NCBI RefSeq assembly: GCF_000430825.1
Contig: NZ_AUMT01000013.1
Coordinates: 62,001-126,000, forward strand
Reading direction: 5' to 3'
DNA: 64,000 nucleotides
Source: Chryseobacterium daeguense DSM 19388
Lineage (GTDB): Bacteria > Bacteroidota > Bacteroidia > Flavobacteriales > Weeksellaceae
Positions 13,476 to 36,733 of the stretch are shown piece after piece; position 1 is the first letter of the stretch; every line of letters begins with the position of its first letter. Position numbers and translations under genes: made by a program. The notes beneath the pieces were generated by a model that saw nothing but the letters and a program-made list of their open reading frames with translations, did not search any database and was not told the DNA's origin.

Positions 13476-14086
13476 TATTGTTGATCTTCAGTATTAACAT
13501 CTTCATTTATTTCTTTTTGAAGATCTATGCTTTTATCAGTCTCAGGATTTAATGCATTTTGCAATTTGTTGAGGTTAGTCAATTCTTTTTGTCTGTTTGC
13601 TTCAACCTCGTTTTTATCCTTGATAGCTTTTTTAATGGATTTTACAAACGTTTGGGTGATATTCTGTGATGCAGGATTCTCAACAGTAATTCCAGCTAAT
13701 TTTGCCACGCCTAAAACGTCTAATTTTGGAACTGATTCTACAATCTCCTTATCCTCTCTATCTAAAAATCCATCATATAAAATCTGAATTCTTTCCATGA
13801 ATAAATCTTTTTCAGATTTGGAAACCTCAACCACAGCTGGGAGATCTTGCTTTTCAATATCCTGAACATCTAAGCCGAAGAAATTAGAAAGTTGTTTTGA
13901 TTCCTTCTTTTCTTCCGATGCAGCAACATTAAAACCGTTGGCGTGGTTTATTCCTCTGATAAGTAATCCCATTGTGTTCTCTACTCTGATAGAAAGCATT
14001 GGCGTGTCTTTCAATAATTCCGCAGTTTCTTCCTTAGCTTGGGTAAGGATATGAATTGCAGCTAAAATTTTATCCTCTTGTGACAT
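13475..14086 (-). CDS. hypothetical phage protein, acidic and helical
   Basis: This 203-residue protein is acidic and helical, with coiled-coil-like regions towards the C-terminus (about residues 140-195). No family is recognised. It is the first gene after the terminase and has its own promoter-like region with a palindrome (14,140-14,162). Its stop overlaps the ATG of the next gene by one base (TAATG), so it heads the unit that continues into the next genes. Confidence 0.55.
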   Translation of the reverse strand: MSQEDKILAAIHILTQAKEETAELLKDTPMLSIRVENTMGLLIRGINHANGFNVAASEEKKESKQLSNFFGLDVQDIEKQDLPAVVEVSKSEKDLFMERIQILYDGFLDREDKEIVESVPKLDVLGVAKLAGITVENPASQNITQTFVKSIKKAIKDKNEVEANRQKELTNLNKLQNALNPETDKSIDLQKEINEDVNTEDQQ

Positions 14087-14139
14087 AATAAATTGATTTA
14101 GTTTGTTTTAAATATTTCTAAAGCGTAAAGTTAGTGAAA

Positions 14140-14162
14140 AAAGTATTCTATTAGAAAACATT
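14140..14162 (-). promoter_or_regulatory. second copy of the prophage palindromic motif, with a -7-like box
   Basis: A degenerate copy of the palindrome seen at 17,912-17,934 (arms AAAGTATTCTA and TAGAAAACATT) sits between the terminase stop and the 203-residue gene. On the minus strand it is followed after 9 nt by TAACTTTA, similar to the -7 box TAnnTTTG of Bacteroidota promoters. This makes it a likely promoter with an operator at the -33 position. Confidence 0.4.
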
Positions 14163-14166
14163 TTGA

Positions 14167-15753
14167 TTAGAAATTTAGATACGATGAATAATAATCATTA
14201 TCATCAGAGTAATCATCGTAATTTCCACCGTTTGAAACTGAAAGACCGCCTGTGGAGGTTTTGTTCACTTCATATTCAAAAAACTCCCTCATCATAAATG
14301 CATCCAAAACATCGGGAGATTGACCACTCAGATAGTTTTTCATTTCCTCTTTCTTAATCACGCATAGCTTTCCATCCTTATCGACCTTATCTCTTTTGAT
14401 AGCTTTTCTTTCGTAGAGCATTCGTTCCTTTAAAGTCATTTTCTCATCATACTTTTTATTTGCTACGTGCGGAGGGATGTAATATTCGCCTCGATTAACA
14501 GCTTCTCCAGATTTATAGAAACACTGAGATTTTAAGTGATTGTAGTTTTCAATGATTCCAGTTTCATTATTTGGGAGAGGTCTTGCTCCATTATTAAATT
14601 CTTTAGCTCCTTCAATAAATCCATCAACGAACTGACCGACACCGTCATTATCGAAAACCATATTTGAATTTGGGACAGAGTAGGCGAATAGATTCGACTT
14701 TAATAAATCAATGACCTGATTTCCTTTTGATTTTTCCATTACATGAAAGTCAATCATAATTTTACCCGACCAAACATAAATAATGAATTTATCAGAGCCT
14801 TTCATGGCTATATCGGTTGTTAAATATTTTTCACCTTCCGGAACAAAAGAGTTTGTAAATATATCGTTGAATTTATGGAAGTCATAAATATCATTTCCTT
14901 TAAGAGAAATTTTCCAGTTACCACCAAGTAAACGGAGTTTTTCTTCCTGACTTTGTGCGTTGAGGTTTCCTAAATATCCAGGATTGATTTTTAAAAGTTC
15001 TTTGTTCTCATAAATGGAACCGCCGATAAATGTAAAAGACTTGATGAAGTCAGCTGGAGAAACCAAGCCTCCGGACTTCTCAATCTCGCTATCAAGAAAT
15101 TCCTTGCACTTATGGTAAACCTCATCAAAGGAATCACCCCAAACAATGTTATCATTTTCATTTGTGAAGTATCTTACAACTCCTTGACGTTCTGGAATAG
15201 GATAACCGTAATTTGGTGAGTTTGGATCTTGGTCGATATACCATTCAATGAAATCTGCAACCCAACTGTCCGGATCCGGATTGCAGGTAGCTCTTATGTA
15301 TGGTTTGATCCCACACGTAGAACGGTTACGAGAAAGCATATACAGGAACATCGATTTACTAAAGTGAGTAAGCTCATCAAACATAATCAAAGGAATCTCC
15401 GCACCCTGCCAGTCGAATTTATTTTCTTCGTACTGCATGTGTGAGAATTTCAGTTTTGTTCCGGCTTCAAACTTCCATTCTAAAATAGAGTTTCGAGATT
15501 CCGCACCGCTTACCTTTCTGTAAAGTTTTTCCGAAGCATCCCACAAACCTCCCTCCGCACGGATCATTGGAGAGGTTCTACGGAAACAAACCGCCCCGAA
15601 TCCCTTAACATGAATGTGTCTTAACGGTTCGAGTAGGAGAGAGAATGTCTTACCAGCACCCGCAGCACCTCCACCGATAACGATGTCCGCAGATGAAGAA
15701 AGGGCTTTCATTTGATAGCCCTCCTGTGGTTTTATGACATTTATAGTTGACAA
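14167..15753 (-). CDS. terL: phage terminase large subunit
   Basis: This 528-residue protein packages DNA into the phage head. The N-terminal ATPase shows a Walker A-like GGGAAGAGKT at residues 27-36 and a Walker B LIMFDE at 122-127. The C-terminal nuclease half shows acidic residues in TTDIAMKG, VFDNDGVG and SPDVLDAF. The start is a TTG codon two bases after the stop of the small subunit gene. I keep it because the preceding VIKPQEGYQ segment is the usual adenine-binding region that the next ATG (residue 15) would lose. It is probably a terminase-6-type enzyme. Confidence 0.92.
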   Translation of the reverse strand: MSTINVIKPQEGYQMKALSSSADIVIGGGAAGAGKTFSLLLEPLRHIHVKGFGAVCFRRTSPMIRAEGGLWDASEKLYRKVSGAESRNSILEWKFEAGTKLKFSHMQYEENKFDWQGAEIPLIMFDELTHFSKSMFLYMLSRNRSTCGIKPYIRATCNPDPDSWVADFIEWYIDQDPNSPNYGYPIPERQGVVRYFTNENDNIVWGDSFDEVYHKCKEFLDSEIEKSGGLVSPADFIKSFTFIGGSIYENKELLKINPGYLGNLNAQSQEEKLRLLGGNWKISLKGNDIYDFHKFNDIFTNSFVPEGEKYLTTDIAMKGSDKFIIYVWSGKIMIDFHVMEKSKGNQVIDLLKSNLFAYSVPNSNMVFDNDGVGQFVDGFIEGAKEFNNGARPLPNNETGIIENYNHLKSQCFYKSGEAVNRGEYYIPPHVANKKYDEKMTLKERMLYERKAIKRDKVDKDGKLCVIKKEEMKNYLSGQSPDVLDAFMMREFFEYEVNKTSTGGLSVSNGGNYDDYSDDNDYYSSYLNF

Positions 15754-15755
15754 AT

Positions 15756-16169
15756 TTAATCTCTGTTGTTATTCGGTAACTCAAAAACTGTAACCTGATT
15801 CTTTATTTCAATTGGGTTATCTTCCTGACCACCGTGATTATGTTTCTGAGGTACTTTTCCCTCTGTTCTGTCGAGGAACGTGGTTATTGCCTTGTTATCC
15901 CCCTGAATTGCATTTTTAGTGATCGTAATGGCTATAAGCTGATTTATTGACGCTTTACTTTTGATTGAGCCTTTCTGTACTTTCTTCTTTCCATCTTTAA
16001 CGAGTGTGATCTCAAATTCAACCTCATTGCTATCTCCGTACTCCTTTAGGAAGTCTGAAACATTCTTAGGCTTTCTGCCATTATTTTCGGGTTGGTTTTC
16101 TTTAGAGAATCTATTCCCTTCAGTATTCCCTTTGACAAATTGTCCGTTGTTATTCCGTTGTTTTTCCAT
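15756..16169 (-). CDS. terS: phage terminase small subunit
   Basis: This 137-residue protein carries an N-terminal region with NGQFVKGNTEGN and NNGRKPKN, which resembles the DUF5681-type start of terminase small subunits. It ends in a segment (FLDRTEGKVPQKHNHGGQED) also typical of them. It should recognise the packaging site on phage DNA and feed the large subunit. The large subunit gene follows after 2 nt. Confidence 0.75.
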   Translation of the reverse strand: MEKQRNNNGQFVKGNTEGNRFSKENQPENNGRKPKNVSDFLKEYGDSNEVEFEITLVKDGKKKVQKGSIKSKASINQLIAITITKNAIQGDNKAITTFLDRTEGKVPQKHNHGGQEDNPIEIKNQVTVFELPNNNRD

Positions 16170-16178
16170 CGGTATAAA

Positions 16179-16388
16179 TTATTCATCGGTCATTCCTTCG
16201 ATTAAATCAATAATGTCTTCCCACGCTTCGATCTGGGCTTTCACCTCAACATATTCCTGTTTGTGTCTTGAAGTTGCTGTTCCACCATCGATAAGAACTT
16301 CCAGATCTTTCTTTTTTTCTTTGGCTCTTTTCACCTTGCTTTTTAAAACTTTTTGTAAGTCCATGAGTTTTTTATTTTCGGGTTTCAT
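16179..16388 (-). CDS. small coiled-coil phage protein
   Basis: This encodes 69 residues, mostly helical and very charged (KSKVKRAKEKKKDLEVLI, QIEAWEDIIDLI). It resembles a coiled coil. It is placed directly between the glycosyltransferase gene and the terminase small subunit. The function is unknown. Confidence 0.5.
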   Translation of the reverse strand: MKPENKKLMDLQKVLKSKVKRAKEKKKDLEVLIDGGTATSRHKQEYVEVKAQIEAWEDIIDLIEGMTDE

Positions 16389-16390
16389 AC

Positions 16391-17281
16391 CTAAGATTTT
16401 TTATCTAAGGTAGTAATATTTTTAATCTCCATTCCATAGTTATTGATACCTGTGGGAATCTCTATGGGCTTTTTAATGAATTTATTTCGCTTAAAAGGTG
16501 TATAATCAACATGATGATGTACACGCTTGAATTTATAGACTATTTTAGCGTATTGAGGGTAGACATCAACGAGCATTTTAGATTTCGGATATGTTCCCTC
16601 TTTCGCATAGAATTCACCTGTGTTTCCACCTTTCAAAACTTGTGTTCTCAGCTTCTCTTGTAAGAAAGCATAAAATTGCACAGTACAAAGTCCGGCAGTG
16701 AGAATATCAAGTGATAAAATTGTGTCTTCATTATAACGCCCTCTCCACCTGAAGGGGATATCGTTTCTGATCAGGTTACAACTATAAATTCTTGTATTGG
16801 CTATGAAGGGAGGTGTCTTTTGCTTGGAACATGCAAACATGAAATAATTCGGACCAGCCATCACAACGTTTTCGTATCTCATGCAAAAATCTTCCATTGC
16901 TGCGAAGATCGCTCCGGTTTCAACTCTGATCTGTTTGTTTCGGTTCCAACGGTAGAAGCTCTGAATATTATCATCCATTACCCAATGCCAGGCAAAACCG
17001 TTTTTGATTGAGTGATCCCAAACAAAGTTTCTTGCTGGTCCCGGACCTTTACTTTTTGTACTTCCAAGATCGTCGAGGGTTTGGTAATTGTCCTGAAAGG
17101 TTTTATCTAAGATAAGAATTGTAACGTACGGATTTCCTTTTGTATGTTTTCTATACAGCTCGTATTCCTGTTCCTCTACAACGATATAATGATCTACCTT
17201 CATTCGGGAAAGTGATTCACTTGTTAATCGTATCTCGTAACGACCTTTTGAAACAATGTAAATAGGAAATTTATTCTTCAT
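16391..17281 (-). CDS. TET-associated-type glycosyltransferase
   Basis: This 296-residue protein has the features of the phage TET-associated glycosyltransferase family, proposed in the literature to attach sugars to modified DNA bases. The visible signs are an N-terminal Rossmann-like start (FPIYIVSKGRYEIRLTS), a GPGPARNFVWDHS segment at residues 79-91, the acidic pair in HWVMDDN (103-105), which fits a metal-bound nucleotide-sugar site, and NEDTILSLD at 184-192. It overlaps the ParB-like gene upstream by 11 nt. No hydroxylase of the TET/JBP type is visible here, so its substrate is unknown. Confidence 0.8.
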   Translation of the reverse strand: MKNKFPIYIVSKGRYEIRLTSESLSRMKVDHYIVVEEQEYELYRKHTKGNPYVTILILDKTFQDNYQTLDDLGSTKSKGPGPARNFVWDHSIKNGFAWHWVMDDNIQSFYRWNRNKQIRVETGAIFAAMEDFCMRYENVVMAGPNYFMFACSKQKTPPFIANTRIYSCNLIRNDIPFRWRGRYNEDTILSLDILTAGLCTVQFYAFLQEKLRTQVLKGGNTGEFYAKEGTYPKSKMLVDVYPQYAKIVYKFKRVHHHVDYTPFKRNKFIKKPIEIPTGINNYGMEIKNITTLDKKS

Positions 17282-17879
17282 CTTTGTATCTCAAATCTTT
17301 TACGATTTCCGGTTTCTTTTCTGGGAACCAAATCGATTTTGTATCTCTCGTCATTTTAATGCCTATCAGCTTTGCAAATGCGAATCTGTCTTCGTCATTC
17401 TCAAAAGAAACAATCACTCTGTTTTTTGCCAATAAATCCTCCTGTTCAAACTCCGGCATATCAGTCCACTCAGCTGTAGGATCATTTTCTCCAATTCCTT
17501 TTGGTATAAGATCAACCTTATCAAATCCGATATCCTCAAGGAAGTCAATCTCAAAATCATCTGAAAGAAGTTCAAAGTCAAATTCGGACTTATCCGTAGC
17601 AAGATTATCTACAATGGCTAATTGTTTTCTTGCATCGTCCTCAGTGGCTAAATCCGTCCTTTTAACAGCTATCAAAGTCTTTCCGTCTGTCTCAATAACT
17701 TTTATCGGAATTCCGAGCTTTTCTGCCTGAGTAAATGTCTCATTTCCGGCAATAATCTCATCTTCATTATCGAGAAGGATAGAACGACCTGCACCCAATT
17801 CCATGAGAGATTTTTTTATCAGCTCCTGATTTTCTTCTGAGTGCTTACGGTAATTTCGTTTGTCTTTCTTAATTCCCAT
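17271..17879 (-). CDS. ParB/Srx-fold domain protein
   Basis: This 202-residue protein has a ParB-like N-terminal domain (DKRNYRKHSEENQELIKKSL, and IIAGNETFTQAEKLGIPI), which in phages is often a nuclease or DNA-modification-linked domain. A second part near the C-terminus (VSFENDEDRFAFAKLIG) is common in phage ParB-like proteins. The ATG at 17,879 is preferred over one at 17,909, which would run into the promoter. It is the first gene of the late operon, next to the glycosyltransferase. Whether it cuts, binds or helps modify DNA is not decided by sequence. Confidence 0.75.
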   Translation of the reverse strand: MGIKKDKRNYRKHSEENQELIKKSLMELGAGRSILLDNEDEIIAGNETFTQAEKLGIPIKVIETDGKTLIAVKRTDLATEDDARKQLAIVDNLATDKSEFDFELLSDDFEIDFLEDIGFDKVDLIPKGIGENDPTAEWTDMPEFEQEDLLAKNRVIVSFENDEDRFAFAKLIGIKMTRDTKSIWFPEKKPEIVKDLRYKDEE

Positions 17880-17900
17880 TTTATCAACAATTATTACACA

Positions 17901-17935
17901 AATATACAAAAAAAGTATTCTATTAGAATACTTTA
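17901..17935 (-). promoter_or_regulatory. late-operon promoter with 23-bp perfect palindrome
   Basis: A perfect inverted repeat (arms AAAGTATTCTA and TAGAATACTTT with a single central T, 17,912-17,934) lies upstream of the ParB-like gene. On the minus strand it is followed after 8 nt by TATATTTG (17,897-17,904), a match to the -7 box TAnnTTTG, so the palindrome sits about where the -33 element would be. Copies occur at 14,140-14,162 and 5,762-5,781. A regulator bound here could control late gene transcription. Confidence 0.6.
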
Positions 17936-17964
17936 GGATTTTGAAATTTTGCTTTTATTATTGT

Positions 17965-18357
17965 TTAGAACAGTGGAAGTTTAGGTTTTTCTACAGTTTT
18001 ATAATGTGTATACTTTTTAGGAATTGGTTTAAAAGCTTCATGCAGGAACGCTATCTTTTTACCTTTGAAATCGCAAACCCAAACATCATTTTCAGGCATC
18101 CTATTTTTTTCGGTAATTAAATACCACCCATTATTATTTTTTAAGTCCTCAAGAGCTTTTCCTAAACCTAATGGTCTAACAGGAACTAAATCATTTCTCG
18201 TAGTTCTAAATGAGAATATTTCATAACCATGCAGGAAAGTTTCATTTCCGTGATCATAGAAATTAGAAAATCCATCACTATCTATACCATAATCGCTACG
18301 GTTGATTCTTTCAAAATCTTCTCCGTAAAATTGTTTTATCAAGTCTGATTCTGTCAT
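17965..18357 (-). CDS. hypothetical phage protein
   Basis: This is a 130-residue protein with a C-terminal segment (WYLITEKNRMPENDVWVCDF) that loosely resembles the DUF551-type W-x-x-V-xx-RLP pattern. The rest is not recognised. It is the last gene of the early or middle operon, before the late promoter. Confidence 0.5.
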   Translation of the reverse strand: MTESDLIKQFYGEDFERINRSDYGIDSDGFSNFYDHGNETFLHGYEIFSFRTTRNDLVPVRPLGLGKALEDLKNNNGWYLITEKNRMPENDVWVCDFKGKKIAFLHEAFKPIPKKYTHYKTVEKPKLPLF

Positions 18358-18375
18358 GTTGTTTGTTTTAGTTTG

Positions 18376-18678
18376 TTAATCCAAAATATTTGGAGCATTA
18401 TTTTTAATTTCATAAATTATACTTTCGCAATTCATAATTAAATTACCTCTGGTCTCTTGTAATTTCTCATCATATGGTAGATTTTGAATCAAATCTATCG
18501 CATCGGTTAATAGCTCTGTCATTTCATCCTCACGATCGGGAACTTCTTCGACCCATTCGGGTTCTGGAAAATCTGTTCGTGCTACATGCTTATTTTTAAG
18601 CATTATAGGATGCATTTGAATATATTCTTTACCAGGTATTAAATCTTTGTATTTTACTTTGATAAATTTTGTTTTCAT
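18376..18678 (-). CDS. hypothetical phage protein
   Basis: This encodes 100 residues. The start (KVKYKDLIPGKEYIQ) is beta-strand-like and the second half is helical. No family is recognised. It is close to its neighbours in the same operon. Confidence 0.5.
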   Translation of the reverse strand: MKTKFIKVKYKDLIPGKEYIQMHPIMLKNKHVARTDFPEPEWVEEVPDREDEMTELLTDAIDLIQNLPYDEKLQETRGNLIMNCESIIYEIKNNAPNILD

Positions 18679-18684
18679 ATATTT

Positions 18685-19101
18685 TTATTTTTCAAATTCC
18701 CAAAAAGATAATTTTCCTTTTACATTAAAAATTGGCTTATCGTAAAACACTGCGTTTGCCAAAACCCAGTTATAAATTGGTTTCGGTTTTACATTTAAAA
18801 TTACAGATAATTGAAAATCAGATTCGCTTATTTTCTCCGCCCAAATACTCTCATGATTGATTACGCAATCGATAACATCAACCTCGCCGATGATTGCGGA
18901 GTATAAATCCCATTGACGACAATCACTGATTCCAACTAATTTTCTTTGCTGCGAATTAAGATCATTCCAGCTTGCAGGTTTAGATGATGCATGAATATAT
19001 ATCCGGCCACGGAAATTTGTTTTCCAAGTTCTGTTTTCGATATCCTTAATTCCATTAGCTATGAGTGATGCCCAAGGCTGTTTAATTGATAAGGCTTTCA
19101 T
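18685..19101 (-). CDS. ASCH domain protein
   Basis: This 138-residue protein opens with ALSIKQPWASLIANGIKDIE and NRTWKTNFRGRIYIHAS, the hallmark start of the ASCH fold, which is related to PUA domains and binds RNA or nucleotides. The family is found in phages and in RNA-modification contexts. The exact ligand is not known here. Confidence 0.8.
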   Translation of the reverse strand: MKALSIKQPWASLIANGIKDIENRTWKTNFRGRIYIHASSKPASWNDLNSQQRKLVGISDCRQWDLYSAIIGEVDVIDCVINHESIWAEKISESDFQLSVILNVKPKPIYNWVLANAVFYDKPIFNVKGKLSFWEFEK

Positions 19102-19104
19102 ATT

Positions 19105-19317
19105 TTAAGGTTTTAGTATTAACAGTAAAAATTCATCGTCGTTTTTCATGAGTTCAATTTTTTCCTTATCCGGAACTTTTGAAGCAGCTATATCTATGAT
19201 TTTGTAAACTTTTTTAGCTTGACAATCGGTAATTTTCATTAACAATGTGAAAACATAATCGTTTTTGATTGCCAGTACGTCTCCATATTGAGACAATTCG
19301 ATGGTTAATTCTTCCAT
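19105..19317 (-). CDS. hypothetical small phage protein
   Basis: This is a 70-residue acidic protein with several beta strands and no recognised family. It is 4 nt from the ASCH gene and 22 nt downstream of the PAPS-reductase-like gene. Confidence 0.5.
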   Translation of the reverse strand: MEELTIELSQYGDVLAIKNDYVFTLLMKITDCQAKKVYKIIDIAASKVPDKEKIELMKNDDEFLLLILKP

Positions 19318-19339
19318 ATTATTTTAATTTAAAATTGTT

Positions 19340-20263
19340 TTAATTATCGATCCCACACTGGGAAAATACTTCACAGCTTTCCTCATCATCAAAGAATGAT
19401 AATTGTAAATCCTCTGAGGAACTGTCATCTTTGATTTTCTTTTTTAATTGTTCTGCCCTTTTTCTGATATCTTCAACTGTGGAATTTTCTCTGAAAATTT
19501 TGATTGGTAATTCCGGTAGTGGCTTTCCTTCTTTTTTCAGTTTTCTTTTTTTACTTTCCGGAATGTAGTAGCCATATTTATTCTGAAGGTATTCGGCAAA
19601 TTCAAACTTCCAAGGATCATCGATCATTATTTGAGCTTGTTTATCTAAGTTTCGTTTGTAGCAATCACAGCAATTGCCTTCCCATCCTTTTAGATTTAAT
19701 CTGAACGGTTGCTGAGCAAACCAAAAATTAACATGCTTTTTTGTAAATGGTTTCCAAGATACAAGCGGATATTTTAAATTATACTCGCTTTTTCCTGAAC
19801 TCATACGATCAAACTCATCAACTCGGATCCCGATGAAAGTGTCGTAATCTTTCTTTTTAAATCCGATACTTTTCATGTAAGAATGAATCGGTCTCTCTTT
19901 CAATTCTCTGGTTGAAAACTTTGAAGAAATGTTCGGTAAACCATATTTTTTCACCATCATTTCGTAAGGAGTATTGTCTCTTAGTTTCCAGTCCTGATTG
20001 CGTGTAGCAGTTTCAAAAGTAACGATCCTGTGAGTTGTTCCTTTTCTTTGATTTAAATGAATTTCGGCTTCAACCCAAATAATTTCACAACCGAAGTGCT
20101 CTCCAATTTTTCTGACAAATTCAAGGGTTTCATCATTCTCTCTACCAGTATTGGCGAAAATAACAGTGAAATCATATTCGTCACTTTTATTCTGCAGCAA
20201 CCACCAAAGCATGAAAGCTGAGGATTCACCACCAGAAAATGATATAAGTCCTTTTTTCTTCAT
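19340..20263 (-). CDS. PAPS-reductase-family PP-loop protein
   Basis: This 307-residue protein has the PP-loop SFSGGESSA at residues 8-16, so it should bind ATP or an adenylated substrate and cleave it with release of pyrophosphate. A cysteine cluster (GNCCDCYKRN around residue 210) could hold a metal or an iron-sulfur cluster. Members of this family reduce sulfate adenylates, or, as in DndC, take part in DNA phosphorothioation; many phages encode uncharacterised members. It shares a base with the end of the PcfJ-like gene (TAATG), so the two are translationally coupled. Confidence 0.8.
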   Translation of the reverse strand: MKKKGLISFSGGESSAFMLWWLLQNKSDEYDFTVIFANTGRENDETLEFVRKIGEHFGCEIIWVEAEIHLNQRKGTTHRIVTFETATRNQDWKLRDNTPYEMMVKKYGLPNISSKFSTRELKERPIHSYMKSIGFKKKDYDTFIGIRVDEFDRMSSGKSEYNLKYPLVSWKPFTKKHVNFWFAQQPFRLNLKGWEGNCCDCYKRNLDKQAQIMIDDPWKFEFAEYLQNKYGYYIPESKKRKLKKEGKPLPELPIKIFRENSTVEDIRKRAEQLKKKIKDDSSSEDLQLSFFDDEESCEVFSQCGIDN

Positions 20264-21594
20264 TATGCGCTGATTAATTGTTTTCTTTTAGGATTTCTTT
20301 TATTTATTATCTGCTTAATTTTTGGAACATTTTTAAGTATTAAGTCTTCGATCTTTTTACTGTGTTTGCTTTTTTTATGCTTTAAGCCATGACTTTGACG
20401 AATTATAAATGTTCTTAAATCAAATTCAATAGTTTCTATTTTTACACCCTCATATCTTGCTGAAAATATGAGACTGTTTTTTTTATTATAATAGCTATTG
20501 GCATAAACGCAATGGTGAAACAATTTTCCCTCTTCGTAAAACTCCTGTACATTCTGTAATGGTCGAACGCTTAATTTTCCTGAAGTAAATTCAAGTCCTA
20601 AAAATTTTCCTTTTTCTCTTTGGTATTGCGGTTGTGCAGTATCAATTCTTTTTTTATCACTAATTCCGGTAACTTCCAGTTCTTTCTTAATTTTCAGATT
20701 GATATAATAATCATGAGCTTTTACAAAATCTTCCGGACAAACGTAATATTTGTTATGAAGATCTTTATCTAAAAAAGCTAAGGCTTCAATGTAATCCCTA
20801 TATGATTCCGTATGCTCTTTTTTTATTTTGTACTTATTTCTAAAACATATTCTGAGCGCTGGCCAGTACTCTTCAATGTCTTCATTCGTCCATTGCTCAA
20901 TGATATTGATATAGCCTAATTTCAACAATGTTTCTGTTTTAGGGCATTTCTCCAGCTTATTTATTAAAGTTGAAAATTGGATATCTTCTAATCGTTTTGC
21001 AGTAATTCCTCTCTTTAGAAGATCAGAACGGAATTTTGATTCTGGCAGAAAAAACCAAGGAAAAGGATCATAATTTTTATTCGTATAGTAAGTAATACTA
21101 AATCCAACTTTACGAATTTCTAATGAGCCACAATATCCCCCAGTATATCCGCTTTCTATCATAGAATTGATAACAACCTTCTTACTATTTCCATCATACC
21201 AACGTTGATTAATTTCCCAGCAAACAATATCTTTTGGCTCTCCTTTTCTGTATCTCACTCTGGTGTAAAAACATCTGGTCACTTGAAAATCGTAAATTCC
21301 TTCTTTTATTACAGAAGCCAATGCAAATATTCTTAACTCTGTATGATCTTTTATTTGCCTTGTATTTTTTACTTTTAGTTTTGATTGACAGGTAGGGCAG
21401 GTTACTTTTTCATTGGAAATAAGTTTCATATCTACATTTGAACCACATTCCAGACAAAATGCTTTATGTTTTGTTGCATAGCATAATTTAGGATATAGTC
21501 GATCAACGGCATAAGAAATCTGTTCTGCTGTTAATCTTGGTAGTTTATTTTCTAACTCCTTTACGGCTATTTCTATTTTGGTTTTTGGTTTCAT
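20263..21594 (-). CDS. PcfJ-like protein
   Basis: This 443-residue protein has a zinc-ribbon-like N-terminus (Cys47/50 and Cys66/69) and a C-terminal region with EFYEEGKLFHHCVYANSYY and a final HGLKHKKSKH stretch. That region is the conserved PcfJ core, named after a gene of the conjugative plasmid pCF10 and common in Bacteroidota mobile elements. Its biochemical role is unknown. It comes directly after a PcfK-like gene (2-nt gap) and before the PP-loop gene. Confidence 0.75.
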   Translation of the reverse strand: MKPKTKIEIAVKELENKLPRLTAEQISYAVDRLYPKLCYATKHKAFCLECGSNVDMKLISNEKVTCPTCQSKLKVKNTRQIKDHTELRIFALASVIKEGIYDFQVTRCFYTRVRYRKGEPKDIVCWEINQRWYDGNSKKVVINSMIESGYTGGYCGSLEIRKVGFSITYYTNKNYDPFPWFFLPESKFRSDLLKRGITAKRLEDIQFSTLINKLEKCPKTETLLKLGYINIIEQWTNEDIEEYWPALRICFRNKYKIKKEHTESYRDYIEALAFLDKDLHNKYYVCPEDFVKAHDYYINLKIKKELEVTGISDKKRIDTAQPQYQREKGKFLGLEFTSGKLSVRPLQNVQEFYEEGKLFHHCVYANSYYNKKNSLIFSARYEGVKIETIEFDLRTFIIRQSHGLKHKKSKHSKKIEDLILKNVPKIKQIINKRNPKRKQLISA

Positions 21595-21596
21595 AA

Positions 21597-22025
21597 CTAA
21601 GACATTAATTCAAAAAGTGATAACTGAGTTCCATCGGCAGGTTTTTCTTCCTTTTTAGGTTTTTTAGGTTTAGCTTCCTGTTTGGGATTTGCTGCAACAT
21701 TTGCACGCTCTGGAGTTTTTCGTGGCGGATTATTTTTGTTAATCTCAGCAACTTGCTCTGCGGTTCCACCAACAACGACATGTCCAGATACCTTGGCAAT
21801 TTTTTTCAAATCTTTGGTCAAATAATATGTTTTAGCCAATGTAAATACCTCATCATTTGTCATGGCATGAACTCCTAATTTTTTTACCTCTCCCATGATG
21901 TATGCGCAGCAGTCTGTAAGATTTTTATCTTTATTCTGAACTGCTGTGGCCAATTCTGGATCGTTATTGATTTCAGCATCTAAATACGTTTTAATAGCTG
22001 TTTCAAATGGATTACTTGCTTTCAT
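21597..22025 (-). CDS. PcfK-like protein
   Basis: This 142-residue protein has the PcfK-type layout: an N-terminal helical domain (PFETAIKTYLDAEINNDPEL, later TDCCAYIMGEVKKLGVHAMT), followed by a low-complexity Lys/Pro region and an ending QLSLFELMS. It is paired with PcfJ two bases downstream, as in many Bacteroidota elements. The function is unknown; the pair is probably co-expressed. Confidence 0.7.
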   Translation of the reverse strand: MKASNPFETAIKTYLDAEINNDPELATAVQNKDKNLTDCCAYIMGEVKKLGVHAMTNDEVFTLAKTYYLTKDLKKIAKVSGHVVVGGTAEQVAEINKNNPPRKTPERANVAANPKQEAKPKKPKKEEKPADGTQLSLFELMS

Positions 22026-22039
22026 ATAGTGGTTTTATG

Positions 22040-24556
22040 TTAAAATTCTAAGTGTTCTATTGAATCAAAAAATTCAGTGATATCGTTTATATAGCTGAGA
22101 TCAATTCTTCGGAAATCTTTATAGTTTCCACGATGATAACCGTCCTGAATTCTTATGATCTTACACCAGACTTTTGTGCCGGCTCTCTCAAATGTGCATC
22201 CAGGTAAAATGATCTCTCCAGTCAATTTGTATTTACTATTTCTGTTGTAAAAGAAATCGTCAAGTCTTTTCTGCATTGCTGGACCATTCGGTACAATTGC
22301 TAAAATTTCACCGCCCCAATATTCTAAATGCTTACAGGCTTTTATGATGTGTTCCATTGCTGTTTTTCCGGAAGCTCCAAAAGGAGGATTCATTGCGATC
22401 TTATTGAACTTATTACTGATGTGATAATTTTCAAATGCAATATTGTGAACCTTCCCTGTAGCATTTATTGATAACTCAGAAGCCAGATAATGGCTCGGCT
22501 CAATAAAATGATTATTTGTATTTCCCGGGAAAAATCTTCCGATCGCTCCATGTCCGGCAGACGGCTCCAGTAAATTTTCATTTGCTTCTGGATTCAACCA
22601 CTCAACCATCTTCATTCCCAGCGGTTCCGGAGTAGCAAAATAATCGACACCTTCTCTGGCTTTATTGGATGAGGTTTTCTTACCACGTGCGAAATAGAAT
22701 GTTTTAGCCTTATCAAATTCCGATATCGTGAATAAAAATCTGTCAGCTTCTTTTCCTCCTGTTCCCTGATTTGTATTTGGCTCGTCGGTGTGGGCGTTTT
22801 TATATCCTTCTTTGAATGCCGTTTCCAGATCACGGGCGAGATTTCCCATCGCAAGATTTTCAGCCGTTTTTGATCTCTGCGCAATCTTAGTCGCAAATGC
22901 ATATCTTTCCGTAGTGGTTTGGATCGTAGCATACTCGTAAATCGCATTACTTCTTAAACCTTCTCTGTATATCCTGCCTTCGGTTTGGATCGCCTGAGTA
23001 GGAGCTGTAGGAAGTCCTAAGTTGATTAATACTCTTTGGTGTTTTCCTGACCTATCGTGAAGTGAAATCCCTTCCTGTCCTGCCTTGATTTGAACAATAA
23101 TTAAATTGGTGTCCGAATCGTCCTCGTTAAACTCATCTATGTATCTGCTGCGGAGTTTTTTATTAATAGTTCCGTTGAACTCTTTCGCCTCCGGAAAATA
23201 TCTTTTTAAAGTTTCCCTAACATTGATCAGATCATTAAGGTTTAAATTCCAAAAGTGAGAGTATTCGTCTCTGAAGTTTGAAATTTCAATATCAAGTTCA
23301 GGGTTGTAATCTTCATCTTTATCCAGGAACTCGTCACTGTGAAACTGAAAAGGGTGAGAGGGTAGAGAATTATTGTAATTGTGAAAAACAACTACCTTTC
23401 TTCCCATTTTCAAATGCTGATAAATTCTTTTCGGGATCTCTCTGGCTTTTATACATTCCAACAGCTGGGTAATGTACAGGTGATTATGTTTTTTATGAAT
23501 TCTGTCACTAAGGATCGGATATTTATCACAGAACGTCTGATCCCAGAACAGCTCAAATCCCGATTCAATTTCTTTTCCGATCTCAGAATCCAGCGTAATA
23601 AATTCACGCGAATAATCATAATCTAAATTAATCTGTCGGGTAGACATTACACCGAGCTCTCTCTGTCTCTCGAAAAAATTTCTCTCCATCAGGTTTTGAT
23701 CGACACCACTTTCCGGAATGGTGCATTTGTTGTACCTCATCCGATATCCGAAATTCTCAACCATGAATTTGCTCCAGCCTGTCGGCACATTATATCCATC
23801 TTCATAGCTTGGATCTTCTATCGTTTCATTGATCTCAAACAAACAACCGTCTGCATATTTTATTGATTTATGGTAGGCGAAAGGAGTTGCTGAAAGAAAA
23901 ACAACTTTTGTTCTATCAACTATTTCAGTAACAATTTTCTTGAAAAGCTCTTTGTTGAAAACTTCTCTACCATATTCATCTGTAGAGTAGAGAGCAGATG
24001 ATTTTCTGATTTTGGTTTTTACAACAGATGGAACTTTTACAATTTCCTGATGCTGCATATAGTACGAAGTGGAAATCCCCTGTGCGTTTTGGTTCAAATA
24101 ATGGCTTTCATCATAAATAACCAAATCAAATTCTCTAGTTAACAGCGCCTGATTCTGGTAGAAATTTGCATAGGTTGTCACACTTATTTCAAATCCGGGA
24201 TCGTGAACTCCGGAAAGATGATGAACGTTTAAATCAAAGACCTCAGCTTCTTTTTTCCAGTCAGTACATTTTTTTTCGGTAGGAACAATTATTAAAATAT
24301 TTCTTTTGTCCTGAGCAAAGAATCGTTTCGCAATACCAAGGCCAACAAAAGTTTTTCCTGTTCCGGTTCCGTTGGTGAATAAATATCCTTTACCAATTTT
24401 AAACCTGTTTTCTGCGAAACTTATATCTTCTGCCTGTGTATCGAAAAGAAAAGGCATCATGTTTTTAATATTTCCAGGATCACCCAGAATTATTGAAGAA
24501 ACATTTTGTGTCGCCTCAAAATCAAATGATAATTGTGTGTACTTACCTTCAAACAT
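22040..24556 (-). CDS. SF2 helicase fused to a DNA methyltransferase
   Basis: This 838-residue protein is a fusion. The N-terminal part has helicase motif I TNGTGTGKT (61-69) and a DESH box (149-152), and about residue 220 has LSATPFAY. The C-terminal part has a methyltransferase SAM-binding motif LLEPSAGHGAIG (about 662-673) and the catalytic NPPF at 723-726, which marks adenine-N6 or related amino-methyltransferases. Helicase-methyltransferase fusions on phages can protect phage DNA from restriction. It may methylate phage DNA as it is unwound. The next gene (PcfK-like) starts 15 nt downstream. Confidence 0.85.
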   Translation of the reverse strand: MFEGKYTQLSFDFEATQNVSSIILGDPGNIKNMMPFLFDTQAEDISFAENRFKIGKGYLFTNGTGTGKTFVGLGIAKRFFAQDKRNILIIVPTEKKCTDWKKEAEVFDLNVHHLSGVHDPGFEISVTTYANFYQNQALLTREFDLVIYDESHYLNQNAQGISTSYYMQHQEIVKVPSVVKTKIRKSSALYSTDEYGREVFNKELFKKIVTEIVDRTKVVFLSATPFAYHKSIKYADGCLFEINETIEDPSYEDGYNVPTGWSKFMVENFGYRMRYNKCTIPESGVDQNLMERNFFERQRELGVMSTRQINLDYDYSREFITLDSEIGKEIESGFELFWDQTFCDKYPILSDRIHKKHNHLYITQLLECIKAREIPKRIYQHLKMGRKVVVFHNYNNSLPSHPFQFHSDEFLDKDEDYNPELDIEISNFRDEYSHFWNLNLNDLINVRETLKRYFPEAKEFNGTINKKLRSRYIDEFNEDDSDTNLIIVQIKAGQEGISLHDRSGKHQRVLINLGLPTAPTQAIQTEGRIYREGLRSNAIYEYATIQTTTERYAFATKIAQRSKTAENLAMGNLARDLETAFKEGYKNAHTDEPNTNQGTGGKEADRFLFTISEFDKAKTFYFARGKKTSSNKAREGVDYFATPEPLGMKMVEWLNPEANENLLEPSAGHGAIGRFFPGNTNNHFIEPSHYLASELSINATGKVHNIAFENYHISNKFNKIAMNPPFGASGKTAMEHIIKACKHLEYWGGEILAIVPNGPAMQKRLDDFFYNRNSKYKLTGEIILPGCTFERAGTKVWCKIIRIQDGYHRGNYKDFRRIDLSYINDITEFFDSIEHLEF

Positions 24557-32536: not shown

Positions 32537-32762
32537 TTTCAAGGTGTGTTTTGAAGTTTTGTAATTCTGTGATAGCATTTCCAAGCTTTTCAATCATTTC
32601 CTTTTTGCCTTCAGGATTATTTATCTGATTATGCCATCTAATTGATCCGTGACAATCTGAAAGTCTCGCGATGGCTTTTCCATCTTCGTAAATTTTACAA
32701 TGAATAGCACTCATGGAATCGATGCTGTCTGGTGCTATGAAAGATTTTTTATTGTAGCTCAT
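32523..32762 (-). CDS. hypothetical small phage protein
   Basis: Started at the ATG at 32,762 this gives a 79-residue protein (MSYNKKSFIAPDSIDSMSAI...). An in-frame ATG at 32,819 would extend it to 98 residues, overlapping the 34-residue frame at 32,764-32,868. The internal start is preferred because it follows that frame after one base. The family is unknown. Confidence 0.55.
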   Translation of the reverse strand: MSYNKKSFIAPDSIDSMSAIHCKIYEDGKAIARLSDCHGSIRWHNQINNPEGKKEMIEKLGNAITELQNFKTHLENVNL

Positions 32763-32763
32763 T

Positions 32764-32868
32764 TTAATAGAATTTTCCTTTATACCAGTATTGTTTGAAA
32801 TATCTTCGAGAGTTGACATTGAGAAATGTTACTTTTTCCCCGAATATCATTGCGATCATTCTTTTCAT
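32764..32868 (-). CDS. possible 34-residue phage peptide
   Basis: A short frame from ATG 32,868 to TAA 32,764 starts 5 nt after the upstream stop and ends one base before the next ATG. The peptide begins MKRMIAMIFGEKVTFLNV. The tight spacing supports it, but it conflicts with the longer start of the next gene. Confidence 0.4.
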   Translation of the reverse strand: MKRMIAMIFGEKVTFLNVNSRRYFKQYWYKGKFY

Positions 32869-32873
32869 AATTA

Positions 32874-33185
32874 TTAAGCTGTTTTGGAAAATTGAGATCT
32901 TAATTTTAGAATGTCATTCATCTGTTTAGCGTAGTATTTAGCTTTATCTTTATCATCAGTCCAGACTGAATGTGTATTTGAGGAAAATACCTTTTCAGGA
33001 ATAAACTGATCTTTATTTATTAGATATAAAGTGCCTTCTGTTTTAGTTCCCCATACTGCATCAATACCACTTACAAAGAGTGCTTTTTCGCCGACACATA
33101 AAACTTTTTGTTCAGTAACCTGTGCTTCCTGAGTAGAGAAATTAATTCCTACATCATAAACTGTTTGTTCTACTTTGTAACTCAT
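32874..33185 (-). CDS. hypothetical phage protein
   Basis: Started at the ATG at 33,185 it is a 103-residue protein. The in-frame start at 33,305 would overlap the preceding gene by 116 nt, so the internal ATG, placed 4 nt after its stop, is preferred. The sequence is beta-rich (VEQTVYDVGINFSTQEAQV). The function is unknown. Confidence 0.5.
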   Translation of the reverse strand: MSYKVEQTVYDVGINFSTQEAQVTEQKVLCVGEKALFVSGIDAVWGTKTEGTLYLINKDQFIPEKVFSSNTHSVWTDDKDKAKYYAKQMNDILKLRSQFSKTA

Positions 33186-33189
33186 AATT

Positions 33190-33567
33190 TTAAATTCTAC
33201 CATATCCGTAATTAGCCCATAATTCACTCTGTTCTGCCAAGTATTCTCTATGAGATTGAATACTTCTCTCTTCAGCGCCGAGCTGATCTTCTCTGAAAGC
33301 GTCAAGTTCTCTCTCTAAATCCTTTCCAACTGAACAAATCTTTTCATCCTCACGATAAAGGCAGTATGTACCAACATTTGTCATTTTAATCGTCCAAAAT
33401 GCATTGCTATCATCCAAGAATAATCCGAACCAATTATTTATTTTAACATTTTCGTCTACTTCAAAATCGATGAATTCTAAGTTGTTTGCTAATTGAACTG
33501 CTTTTCTGAAATCTTTTTCAGTTGGAGAGTTTGTAAATTGTTTTTTGTTTTGTACTTTTGTGTCCAT
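33190..33567 (-). CDS. hypothetical phage protein
   Basis: This encodes 125 residues with an N-terminal alpha/beta domain (NLEFIDFEVDENVKINNW) and a helical C-terminal part (GAEERSIQSHREYLAEQSEL). No family is recognised. Confidence 0.5.
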   Translation of the reverse strand: MDTKVQNKKQFTNSPTEKDFRKAVQLANNLEFIDFEVDENVKINNWFGLFLDDSNAFWTIKMTNVGTYCLYREDEKICSVGKDLERELDAFREDQLGAEERSIQSHREYLAEQSELWANYGYGRI

Positions 33568-33597
33568 TACTGTTTGACTTTTTTAGGTTAAACTTTC

Positions 33598-33629
33598 GCC
33601 GTCTGTTACCGCAGATGGCTTTTTTATTT
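33598..33629 (+). terminator. terminator-like hairpin, plus orientation
   Basis: GCCGTCTG and CAGATGGC form an 8-bp stem with a TTACCG loop, followed by a run of T on the plus strand. No plus-strand gene precedes it, so it would end an antisense transcript or act only as a structured RNA element. Confidence 0.35.
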
Positions 33630-33821
33630 TCTTTTGTGGAAAGCTTTTCTGGCTTCCTCTTTTATTTGTTCTGCTTTAGTTTTTTTCAACTTCCCTGGGG
33701 TAGTTCCTACGCTACCCCGAGAAGTATTCATTTCAGCTTTAACAAAGGCAGATAATGTTTCTATTTTATCAAGTGCGGAGAGAATGACTACCGCTCTTTC
33801 TGGGCTAATTTCTCCTATCAT
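33624..33821 (-). CDS. hypothetical small phage protein
   Basis: This 65-residue protein has a basic tail (KKTKAEQIKEEARKAFHKRK). A perfect 7-bp hairpin (GGGGTAG ... CTACCCC, 33,697-33,718) lies inside the coding region. No family is recognised. Confidence 0.45.
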   Translation of the reverse strand: MIGEISPERAVVILSALDKIETLSAFVKAEMNTSRGSVGTTPGKLKKTKAEQIKEEARKAFHKRK

Positions 33822-33822
33822 A

Positions 33823-34065
33823 TCATGTAATTATTTCTGATTCAAATATTTGTTCATCTTTCCATTCAGTGTGTTTTTTAAATGACTCAATGAAAAAATA
33901 ATTTTCAAGCGTCTTTGAATTTCTGTATGCAGCCAGATATAGCGCTGATTCTCTCATCCCTATTTCTGATGCAATAGTTACTCTTAAATCATAATCATCT
34001 TGAATTTTACGGGAAACCGTAGTTTTGATTTTTCTGTTATTCACTATATTTGTTTGCTCTTTCAT
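33823..34065 (-). CDS. Cro-side early regulator
   Basis: This 80-residue protein is divergent from the repressor gene. It has RKIQDDYDLRVTIASEIGM and LAAYRNSKTLENYFFIE, which fits a small helix-turn-helix DNA-binding protein such as Cro. The ATG at 34,065 is chosen; the start at 34,113 would run through the operator region. The assignment as a Cro-like switch protein is inferred from position. Confidence 0.55.
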   Translation of the reverse strand: MKEQTNIVNNRKIKTTVSRKIQDDYDLRVTIASEIGMRESALYLAAYRNSKTLENYFFIESFKKHTEWKDEQIFESEIIT

Positions 34066-34084
34066 TTTGAAATTTCTTTTTGTA

Positions 34085-34143
34085 ATATCAATTTGATATA
34101 GCAAAAGTAACAAAAAGTTACATATAAAAAAATAAAATGTAAC
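34085..34143. promoter_or_regulatory. immunity-region operators between divergent promoters
   Basis: The gap between the divergent regulator genes contains a perfect 15-bp palindrome ATATCAATTTGATAT (34,085-34,099) and three GTAAC half-sites: GTAAC at 34,107-34,111, inverted GTTAC at 34,117-34,121, and GTAAC at 34,139-34,143. A minus-strand TACTTTTG (34,102-34,109) fits the -7 box for the early operon. These are the likely repressor and Cro binding sites. Confidence 0.6.
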
Positions 34144-34176
34144 AAATTTTCTCTTTAATTGTATAACTTATTGATA

Positions 34177-34836: not shown

Positions 34837-34849
34837 AAAATAAAAGATC

Positions 34850-35296
34850 ATGAGAAAAATATTGTTCATCTTTTTACTTATCTCAACTTTAGGTTTTGCG
34901 CAAACAACTGAGGTAATTCCAAATTCTAATTTTATCGAGAAAAAAGAATTGATTTTTAAAGATGGTAAACTACATATAGAAAAAAAGATTTTTTTGGAAA
35001 ATGGAAAGAATGAAAGCATCCCTGTGAAACTTGATTTTTTTGGTGATGAAACAGTTTTAAATTTTGATTTAAAAAAAGTAGATAAAATTATTTTATCAGC
35101 TGCTGAAAACGCAAAATATAAACTTAAAAGTCCCTCAACTTTTAGACCGTATTCAATAGTGATAAGACCTATCAATAAAGATTATTGGTATACAAATGTT
35201 TTCTTTTCTGGGGAGAATGATTATGGAGCTAAAAAGGATTCAAGTTCGATGGCTGAAATTGATAATGAGGGTAATGTTTTAAAAGACTATAATTAA
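34850..35296 (+). CDS. secreted protein in the immunity operon
   Basis: This 148-residue protein begins with a clear signal peptide (MRKILFIFLLISTLGFAQ) and has no other recognised domain. It follows the repressor by 13 nt and precedes a regulator by 1 nt, so it is made in the lysogenic state. It could be a lysogenic-conversion (moron) gene acting at the cell envelope. No function is seen in the sequence. Confidence 0.6.
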   Translation: MRKILFIFLLISTLGFAQTTEVIPNSNFIEKKELIFKDGKLHIEKKIFLENGKNESIPVKLDFFGDETVLNFDLKKVDKIILSAAENAKYKLKSPSTFRPYSIVIRPINKDYWYTNVFFSGENDYGAKKDSSSMAEIDNEGNVLKDYN

Positions 35297-35297
35297 A

Positions 35298-35609: not shown

Positions 35610-35668
35610 AATTAATAAAACGTAAATGATTGATTTTCAACGTTAATCTATTTTTGTTAAAAAGTTTG

Positions 35669-35715: not shown

Positions 35716-35723
35716 CTCATTTT

Positions 35724-36724: not shown

Positions 36725-36733
36725 AATATAAGG

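Follow-up and report, generated by a model that had tools for sequence, protein, structure and literature searches.

A ParB-like protein with a TAGT-linked tail and a TAGT glycosyltransferase form a candidate DNA-modification cassette before the terminase genes of a Chryseobacterium daeguense prophage

We analysed a stretch of 64,000 nucleotides from Chryseobacterium daeguense DSM 19388, hereafter the window, in which a prophage carries overlapping genes for a ParB-like protein and a TAGT glycosyltransferase. We read this pair as an accessory, swappable cassette, in which the ParB head and the C-terminal tail of the same protein, named ACC in this analysis, would bring the TAGT to add sugar to phage DNA, and we give this reading a probability of about 0.62; that DNA is the substrate is suggested by the genomic context. 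The prophage is complete, has tRNA-Thr att repeats, and extends over about 48.5 kb from tRNA-Thr (C12:49140) to window position 35716. The genome of Chryseobacterium gambrini DSM 18014 shows no difference from it across the 20.9 kb that were aligned. The order of its genes here is ParB/ACC, TAGT, a small ORF and the terminase subunits, as follows:

17905 to 17950, minus strand: terminator-like region with a hairpin and then a T-run, between the preceding gene and ParB (MFE -8.9 kcal/mol, z -4.64)
17899 to 17906, minus strand: TATATTTG, candidate Bacteroidota -7-like promoter box
17271 to 17879, minus strand: ParB-like head with ACC tail, 202 aa from ATG 17879; the TTG-start ORF extends to 17909 (assigned by ParB PHROGs, model and alignment)
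17274 to 17510, minus strand: ACC domain, the TAGT-linked C-terminal tail of the ParB-like protein
17271 to 17281, minus strand: 11-nt overlap, in which the same bases code the ParB/ACC stop and the TAGT start
16391 to 17281, minus strand: TAGT glycosyltransferase, 296 aa, PF20691 match, conserved motifs HWVMDDN and RWRGRYNEDT intact
16179 to 16388, minus strand: small ORF, 69 aa, between the TAGT and terminase genes, no family over the cut-off
15756 to 16169, minus strand: likely small terminase subunit, 137 aa (position and a weak DUF5681 match below the cut-off)
14167 to 15753, minus strand: large terminase subunit, 528 aa (Terminase_6N, 1.2e-23)
35667 to 35716, plus strand: attR core, 50 bp, right prophage end, without mismatch to the 3' portion of tRNA-Thr(GGT), L002:7140-7189

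The ORF list agrees with an earlier note on this DNA about the positions of both ORFs, and the overlap that it described is exactly 11 nt. The ParB ORF does reach 17909, as that note had it; the TTG start there is probably wrong and ATG 17879 is likelier, since the hairpin with its T-run and TATATTTG, which we take to be a Bacteroidota -7 box, lie upstream of the ATG. Both elements also fit the claim that ParB and TAGT are the first genes of a late operon, which is plausible on sequence grounds; against it, a simple scan of 13500-22500 gave no excess of promoter- or terminator-like sites over shuffles (the scan requires at least three G-C pairs, and the hairpin at 17905-17950 is therefore unlisted there).

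The glycosyltransferase matches PF20691 over profile positions 1-204 of 205 (E 1.6e-42; 146.2 bits, curated cut-off 27.5) and phrog_842 (7.9e-51). NCBIfam gave no match. The alignment of 39 TAGT homologues contains invariant columns that include MDDN. The fold was examined in a model of L112, a natural relative with fused ACC and TAGT, rather than of the window protein, and this model is GT-A-like, with a GalNAc-T2-type match of Z 14.5 and r.m.s.d. 4.6 over 233 aligned positions. The solved chains that it matches, such as GalNAc-T2, are presumably GT-A glycosyltransferases.

The ParB-like protein of the window has no Pfam match above the cut-off and none to ParB_N. It matches ParB-like PHROGs (best 6.2e-15), among the 44 relatives aligned with it 31 have a ParB_N hit with E of at most 0.01, and the best PDB matches of its model are ParB N-domains (E 0.04, probability 0.98, none reaching 0.001). 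The nucleotide-binding motif of ParB/Srx N-domains, G-x-x-R, is kept in 40 of the 44 relatives and reads GNET in the window protein, with the arginine lost. A search with the window's own head returned the same prophage only; a gut-phage ParB head as query did return relatives.

The ACC domain occupies the C-terminal ~75 residues of the ParB-like protein, so that ParB is not the mere neighbour of the glycosyltransferase that the earlier note had taken it for. At 147 TAGT places (duplicates kept, the window and L011 being the same prophage; L001-L003, L010, L110 and L111 left out), ACC occurs 81 times as a ParB tail, 34 times as a separate ORF and 20 times as the N-terminus of the TAGT itself; among the 12 places left over, 8 have less than 600 bp before the contig edge. 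In the phage collection every ACC match lies directly before, or within, a TAGT ORF (8 and 12 records), and 296 Bacteroidota genomes yielded the window's own ACC and one weak match (8.7e-4). The ACC part of the ParB-ACC model is helical and free of strands, with high pLDDT over part of its length, and the best hit among solved structures by sequence is an unconvincing E 0.055; on these two grounds we claim no fold for ACC.

The overlap recurs as well. Among 105 split ParB-ACC and TAGT pairs, 95 have a stop that runs into the start, the shared stretch measuring 11 nt in 48 of them and 8 nt in 24 (duplicates kept; the TAGT start is the codon nearest the profile start). The frame offset is identical in 93 of the 105 pairs, for which reason a programmed frameshift from ParB-ACC into TAGT was considered. 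Ordinary coupled starts are tentatively preferred, because a start codon lies near the TAGT profile start, ATG in 103 pairs and GTG in 2, in a count restricted to pairs in which such a codon is present.

We picked 28 loci by ParB-head similarity alone, two of which end at the contig edge, leaving 26 to be scored. What follows the head, as a gene of its own or as a fused domain, is a TAGT in six (one being this prophage, and another, L185, lying under the Pfam cut-off but scoring 48.3 bits against the type B profile), an N6/N4-methyltransferase in five, a C5-methyltransferase in two, Mom in three, an Asn-synthase/QueC-like gene with a C5-methyltransferase in one, a deazaguanine cluster in four, a GT-B glycosyltransferase in one (L186), a radical SAM protein in one (L191) and no family in three (L192, L195, L197). 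The sample contains close kin (L173/L176/L179 and L187/L188), and the classes of L180 and L196 are not one-gene matches, the deazaguanine cluster of L180 following one extra small ORF; QueC alone is no marker of such a cluster, since weak matches (22.6 bits) lie outside the slot in the L176 and L179 records. Methyltransferases, Mom and deazaguanine genes are families acting on DNA. A phage DNA-modification module is better supported than by the family name alone, because related heads adjoin other DNA-modifying enzymes in the corresponding slot before the terminase; of the hypermodification proposed earlier, this part gains support, and no partner enzyme was recognised in the prophage.

The tail changes together with the enzyme. 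In a 12-kb comparison, L176 and L179 share 95.4% and 95.6% identity on the two flanks of a single unaligned block, which holds the ParB tail and the enzyme (Mom versus C5-methyltransferase); the break falls within the ParB ORF. Different tails sit on ParB heads up to 83% identical. Tail and enzyme pair as ACC with TAGT in 11 cases, tail B with TAGT B in 57 (L177 and L183 trained both profiles) and tail M with Mom in 3 (the training sequences of the tail M profile itself), with no cross-match, 17 pairs remaining after dereplication; the TAGT of L190 has another tail. The window locus fits this layout of ParB head, enzyme-matched tail, enzyme and then terminase. Additionally, the pair is absent upstream in four family-level relatives whose large terminase is 70-75% identical.

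In the cassette reading, the ParB-fold head would be a shared DNA-loading or adaptor part that binds DNA, and the ACC tail would dock the glycosyltransferase, the overlapping stop and start keeping ParB-ACC and TAGT made together. In the late phase of infection, shortly before packaging, the TAGT would move sugar from a nucleotide-sugar to a base in the phage DNA, and the sugar would probably protect the phage DNA by evading host restriction. Several observations count against the cassette reading, namely that no enzyme producing a hydroxylated base was recognised in the prophage, that few TAGT records have thymidylate-synthase-family or C5-methyltransferase genes, that the window ParB has lost its arginine, and that human GREB1 is reported to glycosylate a protein.

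In T-even phages and in base J the sugar sits on a hydroxylated base. A version of the cassette reading that follows this classical route, with the base hydroxylated first by an unrecognised phage or host enzyme and the TAGT sugaring the hydroxyl, is a real but tentative possibility. Consistent with it, the T6 dCMP hydroxymethylase adjoins the T6 TAGT, with the alpha-GT and dCTPase 6-12 kb off, and thymidylate-synthase-family genes occur in 6 of 35 TAGT records (C5-methyltransferase genes in 5 of 35). The earlier note had seen no hydroxylase or hydroxymethylase in the window and had pointed to an unseen left part as a place for a TET/JBP or hydroxymethylase gene. That part proved readable and was scanned; recognised in it are a Clp protease, a chitinase-type lysin and, with matches that fall short of the Pfam cut-off, an integrase and a portal. 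The scan of 60 prophage proteins, for which the best 25 of 47 families are listed, also gave a holin family and others, the remaining proteins having no family, and among the families listed no hydroxylase or hydroxymethylase is recognised in the complete prophage, with the record of L171 covered as well; nor do they include a dCMP hydroxymethylase (thymidylate-synthase family) or a ParA ATPase beside ParB. The earlier note would have given up its reading if the phage DNA held only standard bases and no partner enzyme existed, and the second half of this agrees with the scan.

Further searches bear on the same route. The 'TET-associated' label used earlier is not borne out by the TAGT records, with Tet_JBP in 0 of 35 and 2OG-FeII_Oxy_3 in 0 of 36 (this prophage's G638 included; control positive in 2 of 14); the Tet_JBP control was silent everywhere, and we therefore claim no absence from that count. 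Against the classical route, pairwise clustering (E 1e-4) of seven small TAGT phages, presumed near-complete (two titled partial genomes, four IMG/VR contigs without completeness values), gave ACC/TAGT as the one family common to them all at this sensitivity; since it grouped the terminases of just three of these phages together, a divergent enzyme may have escaped it. T6 gp42 and alpha-GT likewise match nothing at E 0.01 in the 477 ORFs of seven phages (this prophage and six others). A further set (A7) covers 140 chosen ORFs of three phages, with the best 25 of 74 families listed.

T6 ggt (beta-glucosyl-HMC-alpha-glucosyltransferase) resembles the window enzyme in being a phage gene with the Pfam TAGT domain, yet it scores 35.8 bits to PF20691 against 146-149 here, and the ACC-TAGT clade profile gives it 3.6 bits, which makes the clade remote from T6 ggt and also argues against the classical route. 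It differs further in that no ACC was found in it, its 261 aa being too short for ACC beside TAGT, in its adjacent dCMP hydroxymethylase with the alpha-GT about 12 kb off, and in adding its sugar to a base that bears glucose already. Through their naming, RefSeq and PHROG transfer the T6 ggt activity to the ACC-TAGT clade; we know of no test of that activity there.

Alternatively, TAGT and ACC might sugar an unmodified DNA base directly, needing no phage-made hydroxylated base and acting as one plug-in of a ParB-head platform with enzyme-specific tails, which would be a chemistry new to DNA; Mom, found in the same slot, acts directly on adenine. We regard this as rather unlikely and rate it lower because the clustering behind the lack of a common partner also failed on terminases.

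We also doubt, slightly more, that the sugar goes from the TAGT to a protein, be it capsid, terminase or host regulator, with ParB as regulator or chaperone. Human GREB1 presumably carries a TAGT domain, the E. coli relative is named 'GREB1-related' by NCBI, and the nearest solved folds include protein glycosyltransferases such as GalNAc-T2, a resemblance in fold that does not establish function. According to text citing Shin 2021, GREB1 is reported to O-GlcNAcylate ER-alpha. Related heads in the slot, however, carry methyltransferases, Mom and deazaguanine genes, and the absence of the pair beside similar terminases indicates that this machinery does not need it.

That ParB marks or loads the packaging site and the TAGT modifies that site only, for packaging instead of anti-restriction, seems improbable. 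Terminase families match 29 to 59 of 62 chosen large downstream ORFs, counts that may overlap between families (set A1, restricted to loci with a large ORF and at least 3 kb downstream, 30 loci falling short of that length; L008, with a second TAGT, left out; second large ORF used in 8 loci, where the first resembles a small terminase). The four relatives with similar terminases and no pair speak against this role, as do phiAS5, Kuja and PTm1, in which ACC-TAGT is fused, ParB is missing and no terminase is annotated within 9-11 kb. Plasmid-like phage partition with the TAGT as an unrelated neighbour, which follows how phage ParB genes are often annotated and read (in the accessible parts of PMC11780129 and PMC4490671), is very hard to reconcile with a prophage with an integrase-like gene and att repeats, a ParB tail that elsewhere is the N-terminal domain of TAGT, and a TAGT start that overlaps the ParB-ACC stop in 95 of the 105 pairs.

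As described in the accessible text of PMC13216743, a 2026 paper, the T6 TAGT is a DNA-acting enzyme of known activity, and solitary TAGTs lacking alpha-GT or beta-GT occur in 288 of 753 phage genomes, may be novel transferases and have a role that is left open; 'ParB' is absent from its main text. ParB-fold proteins do accompany DNA-modifying enzymes elsewhere: in the parts accessible, PMC12783734 describes ParBc in many CmoX contigs, often fused to methyltransferases and of a function called unknown, and PMC12839542 presents DpdB as an ATPase resembling ParB that serves dPreQ0 insertion and that some clusters can do without, neither text reporting TAGT or tails there. The present case differs in having a glycosyltransferase as the enzyme and in its modular build, with head, enzyme-matched tail and enzyme each separable.

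The E. coli ynaK gene and its 'GREB1-related protein', in what we take to be Rac-like prophages, share the order ParB, TAGT, small ORF, small and then large terminase, but have a type B TAGT and a different ParB tail, ynaK being marked incomplete in the strain compared. Matches to the E. coli pair occur in 1572 of 5426 genomes, and in 885 of these they span 80% of the query or more. The ACC domain, recurring overlap and swappable slot appear to be new here: in the open-licence literature, as far as accessible, we found no earlier description of the ParB-TAGT cassette, of which a prior mention is possible.

For many solitary TAGTs, these results supply a partner domain to which they are linked and a genomic setting suggestive of DNA, and the E. 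coli pair offers a relative that is easy to work with. Phage 'ParB partition proteins' beside terminases may act as adaptor heads for DNA-modifying enzymes. If the tails are portable, ParB neighbours would offer a route to new DNA modifications, for which the first candidates are the three family-less slot loci (L192, L195 and L197), the radical SAM locus and the GT-B locus.

The gene pair consists of two overlapping ORFs, which an ORF check confirmed at these positions:

17271–17909, minus strand: ParB-like protein, 202 aa from the likely start (ATG 17879), upstream member
16391–17281, minus strand: TET-associated-type glycosyltransferase (TAGT), 296 aa, downstream member

The earlier note had described a ParB/TAGT pair overlapping by 11 nt, standing first in the late operon and possibly hypermodifying phage DNA. 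The overlap is indeed 11 nt, and both family assignments hold (PF20691, 146.2 bits, E 1.6e-42, and phrog_842 for TAGT; phrog_620, 6.2e-15, for the ParB-like ORF). Downstream of TAGT come a 69-aa ORF, then what is likely the small terminase subunit, and the large subunit (Terminase_6N). Since a hairpin with a T-run and TATATTTG, which we take to be the Bacteroidota promoter consensus, precede ATG 17879, a transcription unit may well start at this predicted promoter. With the TAGT start codon set to the one nearest the profile start, 95 of 105 split ParB/TAGT pairs overlap, the shared stretch being 11 nt long in 48 and 8 nt in 24. The arginine of the ParB G-x-x-R motif is lost in the window protein (GNET) and kept in 40 of 44 relatives. 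Upstream of the pair lie genes for a PAPS-reductase-like protein (19340–20263) and an ASCH-domain protein (18685–19101). An 838-aa protein (22040–24556) that has helicase domains, and whose C-terminal portion matches DNA methyltransferase PHROGs, is a possible second DNA modifier in the same prophage.

The prophage is complete and about 48.5 kb long: the 3' part of tRNA-Thr(GGT), at C12:49140–49189 (L002:7140–7189) of this 4.21-Mb genome, recurs as an exact 50-bp repeat at window 35667–35716 (the window being C12:62001–126000), and an integrase-like gene adjoins the left, tRNA-side att copy. A C. gambrini DSM 18014 prophage (L011) is 100% identical to it across 20,888 bp (window 6394–27281). 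Against L312 of genome G372, the prophage end (window 32707–35752) is 99.8% identical while the host flank (35995–42726) is only 81–85% identical, which argues that the prophage moved very recently between species. Among 320 genomes of the same family (Weeksellaceae), a related large terminase occurs in 15, the window genome included, and TAGT exceeds the cut-off in three. Four genomes with 70–75% identical large terminases have no ParB or TAGT within ~7 kb upstream (in a fifth, at 58%, only ~1 kb is readable); thus, this type of terminase does not depend on the pair to package DNA. The E. coli prophage version, ynaK plus 'GREB1-related protein' (e.g. L314:3501–5217), matches 1572 of 5426 genomes; in 885 of these, query coverage reaches 80% or more.

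To TAGT the ParB-like protein is linked by its C-terminal tail of ~75 residues, here named ACC. In tblastn against Aeromonas phage phiWae14, only residues 130–198 matched, within the TAGT-encoding ORF; the window ParB tail is therefore a TAGT N-terminal domain elsewhere. Profile searches covered 147 TAGT places, counted without dereplication: ParB-ACC followed by TAGT (81), a separate ACC ORF before TAGT (34) and fused ACC-TAGT (20), with ACC not found in 12, eight of which lie <600 bp from a contig edge. Every ACC match in a phage collection either immediately precedes a TAGT ORF or lies within one (8 and 12 records). The predicted ParB-ACC structure (mean pLDDT 84.3) resembles ParB N-domains (E 0.04), and a naturally fused ACC-TAGT protein gives a model (pTM 0.82) similar to GT-A glycosyltransferases such as GalNAc-T2 (Z 14.5, rmsd 4.6, 233 aligned). 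Judged by alignment, TAGT is under strong constraint: 51 columns are invariant in 39 sequences (the others share 50–73% identity with the window protein), and these columns take in all of HWVMDDN except V and all of RWRGRYNEDT except the first R and the G. At L066:7694–10855, a gap of ~1.6 kb replaces the usual overlap between ParB-ACC and TAGT, which suggests an insertion. Tandem TAGT genes, which could build two-sugar modifications, occur in Vibrio phage Kuja (L008:4587–7275) and two metagenomic loci (L012:10001–11856, L026:2–1537).

The slot between ParB head and terminase genes holds other enzymes in related phages. In gut phage L010, with a ParB head matching the window protein at 53.9%, it contains a gene without Pfam match that we take to be DpdA-like, QueC, PTPS/QueD, a presumably QueE-like gene and GTP cyclohydrolase I; by its genes this is a 7-deazaguanine pathway, with the QueC, PTPS and cyclohydrolase families confirmed by family searches. 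The L010 head as sole query found 26 more loci, giving 28 with L010 and the window prophage; two end at a contig edge, and 26 were counted. What follows the head, as the next gene or as a fused domain, is TAGT in six (L185 below the Pfam cut-off), an N6/N4-methyltransferase fused to ParB in five (two by phmmer only), a C5-methyltransferase in two, an Asn-synthase/QueC-like gene plus C5-methyltransferase in one, Mom in three, deazaguanine genes in four, a GT-B glycosyltransferase in one, radical SAM in one and no recognisable family in three. Cyclohydrolase and PTPS occur in all four deazaguanine loci and QueC in three; L180 has one small ORF first. Mom was found only in its three slot records among 21 tested, in a search whose control was silent. 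An Erwinia ParB head query yielded 80 further loci, mostly with the second TAGT type; it also brought up fusions to a methyltransferase (four), loci of C5-methyltransferase/Asn-synthase-like type (two) and a single PP-loop gene (L300). The latter looks PAPS-reductase/IbrA-like, calls IbrA/IbrB to mind by its place immediately behind the ParB head, and resembles the window's PAPS-reductase-like protein. Annotated phages fit this picture: one has ParB-methyltransferase then terminase, another ParB then C5-methyltransferase, and a Porphyromonas phage has ParB, TAGT and terminase in that order; in Vibrio X29 ParB adjoins terminase with no enzyme gene in between.

Tails match enzymes. In loci with TAGT or Mom as the next gene, the pairs are ACC–TAGT A (11, the window type), tail B–TAGT B (57) and tail M–Mom (3, the tail M profile being trained on these three members and alone proving nothing); one TAGT (L190) has another tail, and no cross-match occurs among the 17 left after dereplication. 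The profiles for tail B and TAGT B come from two Bacteroidota seeds and recovered the enterobacterial pairs. ParB heads up to 83% identical bear different tails and enzymes, and in the four deazaguanine loci the ParB protein has a short tail that carries a single CPxC motif. The clearest case of tail and enzyme travelling together is L176 versus L179. Their flanks, 6.3 kb on one side and 4.8 kb on the other, share 95.4% and 95.6% identity; between these, L176 6348–7150 (ParB tail and Mom) is replaced by L179 6348–7582 (another ParB tail and a C5-methyltransferase), and the break falls within the ParB ORF, past the part that encodes the head. Both records also have a weak QueC-like match (22.6 bits) that lies upstream of ParB and not in the slot (G642:29605–29793 and G645:13377–13559, respectively).

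Most likely, ParB head and ACC tail would bring TAGT to phage DNA, where it would add a sugar to a base shortly before packaging; this timing, and protection of the phage, we infer. The TAGT family, the slot and the swapping argue for DNA as substrate, and the ACC-TAGT fusions for docking of ACC to TAGT. Glycosylation of a protein is possible, since GREB1 is reported to modify one and the E. coli relative bears the NCBI name 'GREB1-related'. If the substrate is DNA, the acceptor would be either a hydroxylated base, made by an unrecognised enzyme, or an unmodified one. The partner enzyme that the earlier note sought did not emerge: a Pfam scan of 60 proteins of the whole prophage (30 given individually) had no thymidylate-synthase, TET/JBP or 2OG-oxygenase family among the matches listed (25 of 47 families), which include structural, lysis, recombination, helicase, PAPS-reductase-like and ASCH families. 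Thymidylate-synthase-family genes occur in 6 of 35 TAGT records, all six >68 kb, and C5-methyltransferases in five; Tet_JBP was found in 0 of 35, with the control silent in the same search, and 2OG-FeII_Oxy_3 in 0 of 36. ACC/TAGT is the sole family in all seven of a set of TAGT phages of 44.7–50.6 kb, the window prophage included; the next most shared, a helicase, is in four. Because this clustering was pairwise and brought together terminases from just three of the seven phages, a divergent common enzyme may have escaped it. T6 gp42 and alpha-GT queries had no match in the 477 ORFs of these phages. T6 ggt is a TAGT of known activity (PMC13216743). It is remote from the ACC-TAGT clade, scoring 3.6 bits against the clade profile and 35.8 bits against PF20691, and adjoins dCMP hydroxymethylase; in our view, the name 'beta-glucosyl-HMC-alpha-glucosyltransferase' has therefore been over-transferred to this clade.

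ParB domains near DNA-modifying enzymes are already known (PMC12783734, PMC12839542), and solitary TAGTs have been noted as an open question (PMC13216743). In the paper listings and passages that our literature search covered, neither the ACC domain nor the ParB-TAGT pair nor tails matched to enzymes are described. The following slot genes after ParB heads are candidate new DNA-modifying enzymes:

L192:6548–7105, no Pfam family
L195:5922–6566, no Pfam family
L197:3396–4085, no Pfam family
L191:6585–7595, radical SAM
L186:6510–7865, GT-B glycosyltransferase
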